In this document: positions 13,015 through 20,229 of the stretch, piece after piece
How positions within the stretch are numbered: the first letter of the stretch is position 1
How the letters are laid out: every line of letters begins with the position of its first letter
Virus record (IMG/VR): IMGVR_UViG_3300031684_000014
Span: 1 to 21,543 of that record
Origin: a virus
Direction: 5' to 3' (one strand)
Length of the DNA: 21,543 nt
Translations under genes and position numbers: made by a program
Notes under the pieces: generated by a model
The model's database searches: none
Seen by the model: only the letters and a program-made list of their open reading frames with translations
Told to the model about the DNA's origin: nothing

Positions 13015-13092
13015 ATGTCCGACTTCGCCACGCGCCTGTTCCTGATTATGGACCGCCAGCGCGACGATCAACACAAGGAGACAGACAGATGA
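13015..13092 (+). CDS. 25-residue ORF coupled to the hexapeptide-repeat gene
   Basis: ATG 13015 follows GGAGAGAGACC, the same kind of ribosome site seen before 12360 and 17410. The reading frame gives 25 residues beginning MSDFATRLFLIMDRQRDDQ and ends in an ATGA overlap with the next gene. It could be a tiny protein or a leader that couples translation. The strong site and the overlap support translation; function is unknown. Confidence 0.45.
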   Translation: MSDFATRLFLIMDRQRDDQHKETDR

Positions 13093-13760
13093 AAGAGCAA
13101 ACTCACAATTTCGGAGACGGCAACGGCCCCGTTCCTGCGCACAGGCATATTAAAGGCAACGGGTGGGTGGCTGATACGGCTAACGTACATAATAGCGCGT
13201 ACATTGGAGAAGATGCGCTGGTCTACGGCAATGCGCTGGTCTACGGCAATGCGCTGGTCTCCGGCGATGCGCTGGTACACGACAATGCGCTGGTCTACGG
13301 CAATGCGCGGGTCTACGGCGATGCGTGGGTCTCCGGCAGTGCGCGGGTCTACGGCAATGTGCTTGTCTACGGCGATGCGCGGGTCTCCGGCAATGCGCGG
13401 GTCCGCGGCGATGCGCTGGTCTACGGCAATGCGCTGGTCTCCGGCGATGCGCGGGTCCGCGGCGATGCGTGGGTCTCCGGCAGTGCGCGGGTCTACGGCA
13501 ATGCGCTTGTCTACGGCGATGCGCGGGTCTCCGGCAATGCGCTGGTCAAGCGCGGGGTGTACACGTCTACGCCTACAAGCATAACCCGATCAGATGGGTA
13601 CATGTTCACCTTGCAATCGGACGGATCGATTGTCGCTGGGTGCCGCGACTTTACGCCTGACGAGGCGAAAGCCCATTGGGGCCACCCTAAGCACCACAAA
13701 CATCGTGAAAGCATGGCAATTGTCACCGCTCTGAATGCAATCGCTGCCGAGCGACAGTAA
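13089..13760 (+). CDS. Hexapeptide-repeat beta-helix protein
   Basis: A 223-residue protein. Residues 42-155 are 19 successive six-residue units of the type [N/D]-A-[L/R/W]-V-[Y/S/R]-G, the signature of beta-helical hexapeptide proteins; three units make one coil. A short N-terminal segment precedes them. The C-terminal domain (about 156-223) has TRSDGYMFTL, GCRDFTPDEAKAHW and a histidine-rich GHPKHHKH. This repeat-plus-'GCRxFT' architecture recurs in phage and prophage proteins without a firm function. Possible roles are a trimeric structural or surface protein. The gene is coupled to the 25-residue ORF upstream (ATGA). Its DNA is a near-perfect 18-bp tandem repeat with a recent-looking internal duplication. 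Confidence 0.8.
   Translation: MKEQTHNFGDGNGPVPAHRHIKGNGWVADTANVHNSAYIGEDALVYGNALVYGNALVSGDALVHDNALVYGNARVYGDAWVSGSARVYGNVLVYGDARVSGNARVRGDALVYGNALVSGDARVRGDAWVSGSARVYGNALVYGDARVSGNALVKRGVYTSTPTSITRSDGYMFTLQSDGSIVAGCRDFTPDEAKAHWGHPKHHKHRESMAIVTALNAIAAERQ
13212..13553 (+). repeat. 18-bp tandem repeat array (18 full units plus one divergent)
   Basis: Units follow the pattern RATGCGCKGGTCTACGGC with scattered changes, in frame with the hexapeptide protein. Units 7-10 (13320-13391) and 15-18 (13464-13535) are identical except for one base, revealing a 144-bp higher-order period of eight units. Confidence 0.95.
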
Positions 13761-15263: not shown

Positions 15264-15476
15264 ATGCTTACTGCTATCTTCTATCTGGCAATTGTCTTAG
15301 CAGGTACCTATTTGGTTTTAACGGGGAACAAGCTCTTCGAAGGATACGAGAAGGATAGTAAAAGAGTCATCTATTTTGTCCTAACTGTTGTGTTTATCGT
15401 TCTATCTGTCTCTATTGTCTTAGATACCGTCAGATCCTTGTACGATCCTACGAGCATTTTTTTGAGGAGCAGATAA
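15264..15476 (+). CDS. Two-pass small membrane protein with a C-terminal segment from an inverted repeat
   Basis: A 70-residue protein, AAAGGAAA about ten bases before ATG 15264. Two hydrophobic helices (about 2-19, LTAIFYLAIVLAGTYLVL, and 35-53, VIYFVLTVVFIVLSVSIVL) flank a charged loop (GYEKDSKR). Size and topology would fit a holin or an inner-membrane accessory protein; no family is recognised. The last residues (from TVRSLYDPTS) are encoded by a 41-bp segment that is the reverse complement of 3154-3194, so the natural C-terminus may have been replaced. It is the last gene before the gene-free control region. Confidence 0.6.
   Translation: MLTAIFYLAIVLAGTYLVLTGNKLFEGYEKDSKRVIYFVLTVVFIVLSVSIVLDTVRSLYDPTSIFLRSR
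15421..15461 (+). repeat. Distant inverted repeat, right arm (41 bp, 40/41 to 3154-3194)
   Basis: Forty of 41 bases match the reverse complement of 3154-3194; the single mismatch is near the middle and the match ends sharply on both sides. Any rightward transcript through here carries a sequence complementary to the mRNA of the 3007 gene. Confidence 0.9.
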
Positions 15477-15675
15477 GGCTCTTCAATGAGGAACAAGAGG
15501 CTAGCATTAGTATGTGGCCCTCTTACTGAAGTTACCGATCAACTATGGTAAAGTGCCTCAAAGGAGACCGTAGAGACATGGGTTCACTCTTCTAGTAGGG
15601 TGGGTATCCAGAGCTTAGAGGAGTCACCAGAGGGGTACACTCTGGAGCTCTCTGGTATGAAGAGACCTTACTCAT

Positions 15676-15716
15676 GAACCCCCATCCTGTCCCTTAATTG
15701 GGATGGGGTGGGGGTC
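15676..15716 (+). promoter_or_regulatory. Hairpin that competes with the terminator (possible antiterminator)
   Basis: Bases 15676-15693 pair over 17 bp, three of them wobble (two G-U and one U-G) and with one bulged A, with 15700-15716 around TTAATT. This uses 15710-15715, the left arm of the terminator hairpin that follows, so the two folds exclude each other. Confidence 0.5.
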
Positions 15717-15737
15717 ATACCCCCTTTTTTTTTTTTT
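15710..15737 (+). terminator. Strong intrinsic terminator
   Basis: GGGGGT (15710-15715), loop CAT, ACCCCC (15719-15724), then 13 consecutive T (15725-15737). This is a canonical rho-independent terminator closing the rightward transcript from the small-gene cluster, ten bases before the first tandem promoter. Confidence 0.85.
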
Positions 15738-15819
15738 CTTATCTTTTTTGACAAAAGTCATAGTTTAAGGTAGATAAACAATTGAAAGTAAAGAGAAAAA
15801 ATAGGTGACGTTAAAGAAG
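15737..15819 (+). repeat. Promoter-leader direct repeat, copy 1
   Basis: These 83 bases are identical to 15844-15926 (offset 107) and are diverged but clearly present at about 16113-16195. The unit spans the -35 box, -10 box and about 40 bases of A-rich leader ending GGTGACGTTAAAGAAG. Such identity in non-coding DNA implies recent duplication or selection on the whole leader. Confidence 0.9.
15748..15776 (+). promoter_or_regulatory. Tandem promoter P1 (sigma70 type)
   Basis: Perfect -35 TTGACA (15748-15753), 17-base spacer, -10 TAGATA (15771-15776). Start is expected near 15783. A strong terminator lies directly upstream. Confidence 0.8.
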
Positions 15820-15837
15820 AGGGTAAAAAGAAACCCT

Positions 15838-15856
15838 AAAGGATCTTATCTTTTTT
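15838..15856 (+). terminator. Weak terminator-like hairpin at the end of unit 1
   Basis: AAAGGAT (15838-15844) pairs with ATCTTTT (15848-15854) around CTT, and T continues to 15856. The T-run runs into the P2 -35 box. The stem is A/T-rich, so efficiency may be low. Confidence 0.35.
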
Positions 15857-15926
15857 GACAAAAGTCATAGTTTAAGGTAGATAAACAATTGAAAGTAAAG
15901 AGAAAAAATAGGTGACGTTAAAGAAG
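15844..15926 (+). repeat. Promoter-leader direct repeat, copy 2
   Basis: Identical over 83 bases to 15737-15819. After 15926 the units differ: copy 1 continues with an AGGGT/ACCCT hairpin, copy 2 with GGGG/CCCC and CCCCT/AGGGG hairpins. Confidence 0.9.
15855..15883 (+). promoter_or_regulatory. Tandem promoter P2 (sigma70 type)
   Basis: TTGACA (15855-15860), 17-base spacer, TAGATA (15878-15883), same as P1. Predicted start near 15890; the transcript would run to the terminator at 16080-16125, about 235 nt. Confidence 0.8.
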
Positions 15927-15951
15927 GGGGAAAACCCCTAAATAGGGGTCC

Positions 15952-16075
15952 TAACTAGGGGCCTTACTGACGAGATCGGAGTCAGTGGAGGCTAAGAAGA
16001 GACCCTAAAGGGTCTTCCCTTGAATCGAAAGCATTGTTGTTTGTTGATTATTTGTTAATAAATACTTTAACAGAG
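15952..16075 (+). repeat. 124-bp structured repeat B, copy 1
   Basis: Matches 16224-16347 with only a handful of differences. It contains two conserved hairpins, ACTGAC/GTCAGT (15966-15971/15981-15986) and AGACCC-TAAA-GGGTCT (16000-16015), then a T/G-rich segment and AATAAATA (16057-16064). No coding frame is shared. Confidence 0.85.
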
Positions 16076-16079
16076 ACTT

Positions 16080-16125
16080 AAGGTAGGATCCTAACTAGGG
16101 ATCCTAAGAGGATCTTACCTTTTTT
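16080..16125 (+). terminator. Intrinsic terminator ending unit 2, abutting P3
   Basis: AAGGTAGGATCC (16080-16091) pairs over 12 bp (one G-U) with GGATCTTACCTT (16110-16121), followed by T to 16125. An alternative GGATCC/GGATCC stem lies within. The T-run forms the upstream part of the P3 -35 region. Confidence 0.65.
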
Positions 16126-16153
16126 AACAAAACTTACAGTTTTATAGTAGATA
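16124..16153 (+). promoter_or_regulatory. Tandem promoter P3 (degenerate sigma70 type)
   Basis: TTAACA (16124-16129), 18-base spacer, TAGATA (16148-16153). Weaker than P1/P2 by one -35 base and spacing. It is the promoter nearest the 16382 gene, giving a leader of about 220 bases. Confidence 0.65.
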
Positions 16154-16223
16154 AACAATTGAAAGTAAAGAAATAAAATAGGTGACGTTAAAGAAGAGGG
16201 TAAAAAGAAACCCTAAAGGATTC

Positions 16224-16347
16224 TAACTAGGAACCTTACTGACGAGATCGGAGTCAGTAGATGCTAAGAAGAGACCCTAAAGGGTCTTCCCTTGAATCGA
16301 AAGGACTGTTGTTTGTTGATTATTTGTTAATAAATAATTTAACAGAG
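16224..16347 (+). repeat. 124-bp structured repeat B, copy 2
   Basis: Partner of 15952-16075. Both hairpins are preserved (ACTGAC/GTCAGT at 16238-16243/16253-16258; AGACCC/GGGTCT within 16272-16287), as is AATAAATA (16329-16336). Here it forms the 5' leader of the 16382 gene. Confidence 0.85.
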
Positions 16348-16381
16348 CCTTAGACCTCAAATCTAAAGAGAGGATCCTAGG

Positions 16382-16675
16382 ATGAGTGAAGAAAAGCAAA
16401 GCTATGAAATAAGAGCTTTATGTAGAGCAGTAGAGGAACAAAAAAGAAAAATAGAACTAACTGAACTAAAAGTTAGAGAAATGGAAATAACTGAAACAAC
16501 TATGAAATCCCAGATCAAAACTCTTACAGAACTCTTAGCACAGACTAATCATGCTATTAAAGAGAATGATGATAGGATGAGAACAGGTTGGAACAGATTT
16601 TTCTGGATCCTTGGCGGGGCATTTATAGCTTCTGTCTGGACTTGGGTCTCCAGAGGAGGACTTATAGGACAATGA
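16382..16675 (+). CDS. Coiled-coil protein with C-terminal membrane helix
   Basis: A 97-residue protein. Residues 8-60 are a long charged coiled coil (AVEEQKRKIELTELKVREMEITETTM). Residues 70-90 (NRFFWILGGAFIASVWTWV) are a membrane helix with a short basic end. This resembles XhlA/hemolysin-like and holin-associated proteins in layout, but other tail-anchored phage proteins share it. It is the first gene after the tandem promoters. GAGAGGA lies about ten bases upstream of ATG 16382, and its stop overlaps the next start (ATGA). Confidence 0.7.
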   Translation: MSEEKQSYEIRALCRAVEEQKRKIELTELKVREMEITETTMKSQIKTLTELLAQTNHAIKENDDRMRTGWNRFFWILGGAFIASVWTWVSRGGLIGQ

Positions 16676-17409: not shown

Positions 17410-18171
17410 ATGTCTGATAATAAAGATGACAAACCTAAGCGTCCTCGTGGTCGACCTCGCAAAGATGGTCTTCCGCCGGGGAGTCCTAAGCCAAAAAAGA
17501 ACCATGTTTCAGAAAAAGACAAGATGAGCCACGTAGGGTGTGAAGGGAGAGAGAATCCTCCTTTATTCAGTGGGGAAGAAGGTACTGAAAACGAAACTAG
17601 ATGGAATACAGAGCAGGCTGCTCGTGCAGCTATGGAAGATAAGATCAATGCCGTAGATAACGGTGATTGGGACTTTGAAAACAATCGTAGATTCAATAAA
17701 GGCGGTAGACCTAAAGGCTCTAAGAATGTGAAGATCGATCCCTCTAATGCTGCTGGTAAGCTAGAAGAGCTTAACTTCGATCCTATGGTTGAGATGATCA
17801 AACTCTATAAGCAGATTAACAGAGATCTTTCTGCTGTGAGAGTTAAGAAGACTGATAAAGCTCGTAACGCTCCTACAGACGACCCTGATAGGTATGAGTA
17901 TACAGTTCCTCGTGGATCACACCAGTATAACGGTATGCTACAGATCAAACAGACCATCATTAAGGATCTCCAGCGGTATGGTTATCGTATGGTACCTGAT
18001 AAGCAAGAGTTGGACATCAATGAAAAGGCTCCAACTATTATTAAACTTGATCTCGGTGAAAAAGACAACAATGACTCGGATTCAGATTCAGATTCAGATT
18101 CAGATGGAAGATTCTCTGAGGATGAGACCTCTAAGAAAGAAACGACTATTAACGCTAGCTACGAGTTCTGA
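17410..18171 (+). CDS. AT-hook DNA-binding protein, putative small terminase subunit
   Basis: A 253-residue protein. Two AT-hook-like motifs are present: RPRGRPRK (11-18) and GGRPKGSKN (98-106). The central part (about 110-200) is helical, and an acidic DS repeat occupies 222-232 (five DS pairs plus D). Position three genes before the large terminase and the DNA-binding motifs make it the best candidate for the small terminase subunit, which recognises phage DNA and loads the motor. I see no classic TerS helix-turn-helix, so this is inference. The start has GGAGAGACC about two bases before ATG. Confidence 0.6.
   Translation: MSDNKDDKPKRPRGRPRKDGLPPGSPKPKKNHVSEKDKMSHVGCEGRENPPLFSGEEGTENETRWNTEQAARAAMEDKINAVDNGDWDFENNRRFNKGGRPKGSKNVKIDPSNAAGKLEELNFDPMVEMIKLYKQINRDLSAVRVKKTDKARNAPTDDPDRYEYTVPRGSHQYNGMLQIKQTIIKDLQRYGYRMVPDKQELDINEKAPTIIKLDLGEKDNNDSDSDSDSDSDGRFSEDETSKKETTINASYEF
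18079..18105 (+). repeat. GATTCA hexanucleotide microsatellite
   Basis: Four perfect GATTCA units plus GAT encode alternating Asp-Ser in the putative small terminase. Slippage would add or remove DS pairs without a frameshift. Confidence 0.85.
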
Positions 18172-18891: not shown

Positions 18892-20229
18892 ATGCCAAGT
18901 ATTAAACTACACCCCGGTCAAAGTAGAGTGTTTAAAGATGTTATGGTTGATGGAAAATACCGTTATGGTGTGGTTTGCGCTGCCCGAGGTTGGGGTAAGT
19001 CTTATTTCGCTGGCACTACGGCGCTACAGGCAGTTCAAGAACTAGTTAACATGCCAGCCGATGTTCCTAACAAGAACGTTGCTATTATTGCTCCTACCTA
19101 TCAGCAGGTGGTGGATATTTACTATCCGCTGCTTGCTTGGCAGCTCGGTCTAGAGGACTTTGCTGTTAAACATAGTAGATCTGCTGGTCAGTTTTGGCTC
19201 CCTAACAACGTTATGCTTAAGCTCTGGTCTTACGAGGCTTCAGAGCGTATGCGTGGTACAGGACAATACCTTGTTATTCTTGATGAGGTCTGTTCTTGGA
19301 AGGGTGCAGGTACTAACCTAAAGGAAAGCTGGGAGTCGGTAATCGAGCCTTGTGTTACTACTCGTTGGTCCCCTATGATGCAAAAGAAGTGGAATAGTCC
19401 TTTTCCCGGTCGTGCTATTGTCATTAGTACACCAAGGGGTCATGACTATTTCTATGAGATGTTCAATAGGAAAGAGAATGACAACGCTTGGGGTTCTTAC
19501 CACTTTAACTATAGACAATCACCCTACTTAGATCCTGATGAGATTCAACGAGCTAAGATGACTCTAGACCCTCTTAAGTTTGCAAGAGAGTATGAAGCAT
19601 CATTTAAAGACTCTGGTAACAATCTGTTTTATATGTTTAATCGTAATGATCACGTAGACTCTGCTCTACCTGACATCCAGAAAGGAGAAGATGTTCATGT
19701 TGCAATGGACTTCAACATCGGTATTATGGCTTCAGCTATCGGCGCTCGCCGTGGTAATCAGACGCATTGGCTGCACGAACTTAGTGGCCATCCTGATACT
19801 GATTCGGTCGCTAAGTCCCTCGTAAGTAAATACGTAAAGAATGGGCATAAGGTAATCGTCTATCCGGATCCTACAGGTAAGAGTCGTAAGACCTCTGCCT
19901 CTGGGGAGACCGACTTCAGTATTCTTCGTAAGGCTGGTCTAACCGTAAGGGTTAGAGAGGCATCTCCAGCTATCATAGATAGTACTAACGCAGTTAACGC
20001 TCAGCTTAAGAACGCTAACGGGAATGTTAATATGTACTTTCACCCTCGTATGCTTAACACTGTTCGTTCTATGGAGCGCACGTCTTGGCTAGAGAATAAC
20101 CCAGATACAGCACAAATCAATAAGACCGAGGGGGTCGAACACTGGTCTGATGCTATTAGGTACTATACAGAGTATAACTACCCTATTCGTAGCGGTAGTG
20201 TAGGCGTTGTTAAGACTTCTACTTTCTAG
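18892..20229 (+). CDS. terL: Terminase large subunit (packaging ATPase and nuclease)
   Basis: A 445-residue DNA-packaging motor that pumps and cuts genome DNA at the prohead portal. ATPase domain: Walker A ARGWGKS (31-37), a Q-rich adenine region near HPGQSR (7-12), Walker B YLVILDE (126-132) with catalytic E132, and coupling motif STPRG (179-183). The nuclease (RNase H-like) domain has D273 in AMDFNIG, D326 in YPDPTGK and D420 in SDAIRYY, the acidic triad expected for metal binding. Length fits the family. AGGATAATAGAG precedes ATG 18892. Small-gene order with an AT-hook protein upstream supports a packaging module. Confidence 0.92.
   Translation: MPSIKLHPGQSRVFKDVMVDGKYRYGVVCAARGWGKSYFAGTTALQAVQELVNMPADVPNKNVAIIAPTYQQVVDIYYPLLAWQLGLEDFAVKHSRSAGQFWLPNNVMLKLWSYEASERMRGTGQYLVILDEVCSWKGAGTNLKESWESVIEPCVTTRWSPMMQKKWNSPFPGRAIVISTPRGHDYFYEMFNRKENDNAWGSYHFNYRQSPYLDPDEIQRAKMTLDPLKFAREYEASFKDSGNNLFYMFNRNDHVDSALPDIQKGEDVHVAMDFNIGIMASAIGARRGNQTHWLHELSGHPDTDSVAKSLVSKYVKNGHKVIVYPDPTGKSRKTSASGETDFSILRKAGLTVRVREASPAIIDSTNAVNAQLKNANGNVNMYFHPRMLNTVRSMERTSWLENNPDTAQINKTEGVEHWSDAIRYYTEYNYPIRSGSVGVVKTSTF

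Follow-up and report, generated by a model that had tools for sequence, protein, structure and literature searches.

What is the function of three closely similar units that lie in tandem in non-coding phage DNA, a short distance ahead of a terminase gene? We have studied this in a stretch of viral DNA of 21,543 nucleotides (the window). The conclusion that emerges from analysis of the sequence is that the region very probably controls the late genes of a Naomviridae-like siphovirus, comprising a boundary terminator, tandem promoters for a phage polymerase, and structured 5′ leaders. Computation gave the promoter family with its strand and gene context, the gene for the polymerase, and the conservation of a terminator-plus-promoter layout in relatives.

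The array makes up the whole of the non-coding stretch between an ORF that ends at 15476 and another that starts at 16382. It contains a unit of 91 nt in three copies, at 15737-15827, 15844-15934, and 16114-16204. Between units 1 and 2 the identity is 98%, and it is complete over the 83 nt from 15737 to 15819; for unit 3 it is 77%. An earlier reading made from the sequence only had reported three repeated units with 83 bases identical in the first two, and these are real and correctly placed. The segment that it found to be common to units 2 and 3 was also confirmed, extending over 135 nt (15946-16080 and 16218-16352) with 93% identity. Four other contigs, from as many other metagenomes, contain the array with 100% identity, and it is therefore not an artefact of assembly.

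The genome context was taken from a contig of 61,150 bases (L015-L018) that is 99.68% identical to the window; positions marked rc refer to its reverse complement, i.e., to the direction of the genes. The first ORF 3′ of the array (16382-16675, plus strand) encodes an unknown protein of 97 amino acids with no Pfam or PHROG match. The gene for the terminase large subunit (18892-20229, plus strand) marks the late module that would be transcribed from the array. There was no DNA match to the window among named phages, and relatives were therefore reached by way of protein and pattern.

Two features of the surrounding DNA may be mentioned. A stretch of 107 bp (15553-15659) directly upstream of the boundary terminator matches a part of the phage's own primase/helicase gene (rc 18022-18128) with 88% identity. 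We considered the section 15476-15710 as a group I intron, and dropped this; Rfam does not support it, and the copied helicase fragment makes up part of the section. Between 12000 and 14000 the G+C content of the window is 54-59%, compared with about 42% elsewhere, and there are a repetitive ORF (13089-13760) and internal repeats; this section is probably an acquired island.

Predicted SP6-Type Promoters in the Repeated Units

The most conserved part of the leader in each unit is AAATAGGTGACGTTAAAGAAGAG, spanning positions -17 to +6. This is the extent of the consensus of ∼23 bp found in promoters of the SP6/T7 class. All three promoters lie on the plus strand and are found with matrices for both SP6 and the marine phage DSS3_VP1. 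P1 (15799-15821, with its 16-mer core at 15802) and P3 (16176-16198) match the SP6 consensus at 18 of 23 positions, and P2 (15906-15928) at 17 of 23; the predicted starts are 15816, 16193, and 15923, respectively. The SP6 consensus ATTTAGGTGACACTATAGAAGAG was checked on the SP6 genome (NC_004831), giving four perfect copies of the core and ten near ones, all on one strand. As in SP6, the sites are intergenic, on one strand, and downstream of the polymerase gene, with TAGGTGAC identical at -14 to -7 and a G at the start. They differ from those of SP6 at -6/-5, which is GT here and AC in SP6, and at -2, which is A here and T in SP6.

The 16-mer core TAGGTGACGTTAAAGA is present in seven perfect copies in the 61-kb contig (rc 10325, 19892, 36514, 36621, 36891, 47412, and 55270), all in gene direction and none on the other strand; about 4e-5 would be expected per strand. 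Two variant cores, TACGATGCGTTAAAGA and TACGATGTGTTAAAGA, occur at rc 55124 and 55481. About 82% of the contig is coding, yet all nine sites, which share the direction of the genes, have intergenic predicted starts. A weight matrix made from SP6 only returned the seven perfect sites as its top seven, with 12.4-21.1 bits (next forward site 11.6, best reverse site 8.0), and one made from DSS3_VP1 only placed all nine on top with scores of at least 19.2 (next forward 15.9, best reverse 9.9). When viral contigs were scanned with the 16-mer, chance matches in unrelated coding sequence, told by their flanks, were left out. Further copies form a second array (array B) before the portal gene at rc 55121-55546. 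It has three promoters, of which two show the variant TACGATGYG; the structured segment is present twice, once in truncated form. We conclude that the conserved units are in all likelihood promoters of a single-subunit SP6-type RNA polymerase of the phage, and not of the sigma70 type.

Sigma70-Type Boxes and Probable Early Promoters

The sequence-only reading had assigned a sigma70-type layout to the units. The boxes lie on the plus strand with the form TTGACA-17-TAGATA in unit 1 (15748-15776) and unit 2 (15855-15883), and TTAACA-18-TAGATA in unit 3. TTGACA is exact in the first two, yet TAGATA matches TATAAT at only three of six positions, and a consensus scan of moderate stringency called none of the three. 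As host promoters with -35 and -10 hexamers spaced by 16-18 nt they are no better than background, sites of equal score being common on the same strand of the 61-kb contig (654 with at least 8/12 matches, 128 with at least 9/12). Their role is thus doubtful, and the transcription starts placed by them at 15783, 15890, and 16160 lie about 33 nt upstream of those predicted for the phage promoters.

Might each unit nevertheless be a dual promoter, with a working host sigma70 promoter ∼33 nt upstream, such that the host polymerase also transcribes the late genes? We consider this unlikely. The -35-like box is kept in all three units and in the second unit of array B (five of six positions in unit 3 and in B2), and TAGATA is retained in all four despite a spacer that has changed and gained an indel. 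This conservation is unexplained by the phage polymerase alone and counts against our main reading, and because of it the boxes may have some minor role. However, the poor -10 box and the abundance of such sites genome-wide argue against a working host promoter, and no such pair is found at the phage's other promoters, nor upstream of those of DSS3_VP1 and DSS3_PM1. The sequence-only reading had envisaged relatives that might keep the -35/-10 boxes and lose the hairpins; the reverse is seen, the DSS3 phages keeping the phage-type boxes and G-rich leader hairpins without -35/-10 boxes.

The further suggestion of stacked early promoters does not agree with the position of the region at the head of the terminase and structural genes. 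Early-type promoters are found elsewhere in the genome, where a block AAAGTGAGAAAAC.AAG.CATCTATAATGA with a perfect TATAAT occurs in the early region (rc about 147 in the 61-kb contig; about 35794 and 36237 in DSS3_VP1). It is likely to be an early promoter for the host or a virion polymerase, and its presence there in both phages argues against an early role for the array.

A Single-Subunit RNA Polymerase Encoded by the Phage

Promoters of the SP6/T7 class require a cognate single-subunit polymerase, and one is encoded in the same genome. The 61-kb contig contains a gene for a T7-type enzyme (PF00940, E = 1.5e-80; phrog_414, E = 4.2e-113). All nine promoter sites are downstream of this gene, the first by about 0.7 kb, and the 61-kb contig has no promoter site upstream of it. 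A polymerase gene ahead of the first promoter site is the order known from T7-like phages. The protein is only 32% identical to the SP6 polymerase, which counts against our main reading, and SP6 is a podovirus whereas the phage studied here is a siphovirus.

In T7 RNA polymerase it is residue 748 that reads the bases of the promoter near -10/-11. If residues are counted from the conserved Phe 733 of the T7 enzyme, this position is Asn in T7, Arg in both SP6 and the present phage, Lys in DSS3_VP1, and Glu in a more distant relative (G024) in which the promoter word was not found.

A group I intron (RF00028), together with a gene for an HNH endonuclease, splits the polymerase gene (L017:13455-13639, minus strand, and flanks). 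A gene for a DNA primase/helicase (L017:1439-4156, minus strand) contains an intein-like insertion (Hom_end_hint, LAGLIDADG).

Predicted Promoters and Terminators in Related Phages

Among named phages, the closest are DSS3_VP1 and DSS3_PM1 (64% for the polymerase, 69% for the terminase), which are classified as Naomviridae. The genes for terminase, polymerase, portal, and head fusion have homologues in a similar order in this family, which places the present phage among the relatives of Noahvirus. Both DSS3 phages carry the same promoter family on one strand, and the opposite strand gave no match even when three mismatches were allowed. As here, the sites have TAGGTGAC / TAGGTTAC / TAGGGTGC together with GTTAAAG and are followed by G-rich 5′ hairpins; tandem sites follow the late terminator, and a further tandem group lies ahead of the portal gene, in the position that array B has here. 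In DSS3_VP1 the tandem pair is at 2243 and 2334, in the gap 2143-2534 upstream of the terminase and directly after a strong terminator, and the homologous predicted starts are at 2257, 2348, and 19341. Unlike the array studied here, those of the DSS3 phages have no -35/-10 boxes and no internal terminator, and the leader sequence is different. No promoters are annotated in the DSS3_VP1 and DSS3_PM1 records, and our literature search, which did not extend to the paper first describing the DSS3 phages, gave no account of promoters in the Naomviridae.

The DNA of DSS3_VP1 contains deoxyuridine (PMC12697855). PF00383, the family of the VP1 deaminase, was not found in the incomplete contigs of the species studied here.

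We also fetched 60 relatives by terminase, of which 16 have a long enough stretch upstream. A hairpin with a T-run is present upstream of the terminase in 11 of the 16 (exactly one in each of ten by scripted search, and in L117 by reading); the other five lack a strong one. The exact promoter word gave nothing convincing in the more distant relatives, which counts against our main reading, and neither TWATGATA nor a loosened promoter word was clearly strand-biased there.

Phage T7 has tandem phage promoters, leaders with stem-loops or RNase III sites, and its own single-subunit polymerase. The present phage resembles it in its tandem promoters, structured 5′ leaders, and polymerase. The promoter sequence differs, and here a terminator candidate and a repeated 135-nt leader lie within the array.

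Candidate Terminators and Structured Leaders

The boundary terminator candidate (15674-15737, plus strand) is a long G+C-rich hairpin followed by T13 (15725-15737). A second candidate within the array (16080-16125, plus strand) has a 13-bp hairpin and T6, with z = -3.45. Both have the G+C-rich hairpin and T-run of an intrinsic terminator. The sequence-only reading had placed a terminator before each unit; there are good candidates at 15710-15737, which falls within the boundary candidate, and at 16080-16125, but 15838-15856 is not supported as a terminator, its hairpin being A/U-rich and unremarkable (z = -1.57). That a -35 box adjoins each terminator T-run was not confirmed; the T6 before TTGACA belongs to the repeated unit, and in unit 1 the T13 of the terminator is a separate run just upstream. 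In its broad outline of tandem promoters, bounded by terminators and with structured leaders, the earlier reading was right.

A G-rich 5′ hairpin is possible at each transcript start, as at most other promoters of these phages; that predicted by folding for the P1 transcript (15820-15837, plus strand) is weak. The structured segments of unit 2 (15946-16080) and unit 3 (16218-16352), both on the plus strand, contain the hairpin ACTGACGAGATCGGAGTCAGT at 15966-15986 and 16238-16258. The corresponding transcripts fold far better than shuffled sequences (z = -5.28 and -4.10, respectively). With those of array B there are four paralogous copies of the 135-nt segment, one of them truncated, and the ACTGAC/GTCAGT hairpin is invariant; no contigs other than those of this phage group gave a match to ACTGACGAGATCGGAGTCAGT. 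Rfam 15 gave no family at gathering score in the window, nor in the late regions of relatives. The best weak match, RT-16, falls mainly on the terminator hairpin and is below the cut-off.

A Proposed Mechanism of Late Transcription

We propose that read-through from the upstream genes would be stopped at the boundary terminator. The phage's own SP6/T7-class polymerase, whose gene comes earlier in the gene order, would start at P1-P3 and then transcribe the terminase and structural genes. Each RNA would begin with a G-rich 5′ hairpin, to which the P2 and P3 RNAs would add the folded 135-nt leader, which probably serves to stabilise the mRNA or as a site of processing. The three copies of the promoter, which very probably arose by tandem duplication and have a related array before the portal gene, plausibly raise the output. 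From these features we infer the use of the sites by the polymerase, its timing, the higher output from three copies, the function of the leaders, and the activity of the terminators. The internal terminator is a poor fit with simple stacking of promoters; if active on the phage polymerase it would stop the P1 and P2 transcripts, which would then give a separate RNA of about 200-310 nt.

This leads to a different explanation, that the product of P1 and P2 is a discrete structured RNA of this length, ending within 16080-16125 and acting alone, such that P3 alone drives the late genes. The good terminator candidate and the folding of the unit 2 transcript are consistent with it, as is a covarying, pseudoknotted RNA in the same slot in relatives. 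In the late control gap of six relatives, a 6-mer in a hairpin loop (GGUAUC, GACAUC, AACAUC, or UGCAUC) is exactly complementary to a 6-mer downstream (L103:5719; L104:2520, the same in L105-L109; L110:136; L111:2113; L115:6038; L121:6378). Seven of twelve pairs are changed on both sides, none of 500 shuffles was as good, and this element in the relatives has no Rfam match. However, the window itself showed no such pseudoknot motif, an almost identical structured segment is present in the leader of the P3 mRNA and in array B, and there is no terminator between the tandem promoters of DSS3_VP1 nor between B1 and B2. A separate small RNA is therefore doubtful. A broader proposal is less probable still: that the gap between terminator and late genes is a family-wide slot for small structured phage RNA (from P1 and P2 here, ending within 16080-16125, and pseudoknotted in other Naomviridae relatives), in phages with two single-subunit polymerases, one SP6-like and the other head-fused and injected with the DNA.

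It is also improbable that recombination merely copied a promoter unit of which one copy alone matters: the 83 identical bases of units 1 and 2 make the duplication look recent, and the helicase fragment just upstream indicates that recombination happens here, but unit 3 has kept its promoter exactly though its upstream part has diverged, promoters at the same late genes are in tandem in array B and in the DSS3 phages too, and contigs from several metagenomes carry the array without change.

Under our preferred reading, as promoters of the phage polymerase, P1-P3 are further members of the SP6/T7 class; a tandem array that includes a terminator candidate and a repeated leader is unusual in its layout, and not a new principle. 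They provide a promoter sequence and a transcription map for the Naomviridae, a family of marine phages known for deoxyuridine DNA. An SP6-type promoter in a siphovirus with so divergent a polymerase offers a direct test of the co-evolution of polymerase and promoter specificity, and possibly a new orthogonal polymerase-promoter pair.

A Head-Fused Second Polymerase

A larger surprise, apart from the array itself, is that the same phages encode a second T7-type polymerase that is likely to be carried in the virion. In this protein a Mu-F head domain (PF04233, E = 1.8e-13) is fused to a T7-type RNA polymerase domain (PF00940 above the cut-off; phrog_414, E = 4.9e-25). The genes are located at L095:21242-25633 (DSS3_VP1 gp108), L137:11701-16149, and L140:13057-17505, and in the species studied here at about 6252-10920 of L178 (minus strand). 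They are annotated only as head morphogenesis or minor head protein. Among 50,697 phage records, matches to the fusion were confined to DSS3_VP1, DSS3_PM1, and EBPR siphovirus 1. The structure model of the fused polymerase is poor (mean pLDDT 49.9), and in the present species the polymerase is interrupted by about 270 bp near motif B. The fused polymerase keeps DxxGR and the residues of motifs A, B, and C, and judged by its sequence it is a candidate for an RNA polymerase injected from the virion in siphoviruses.
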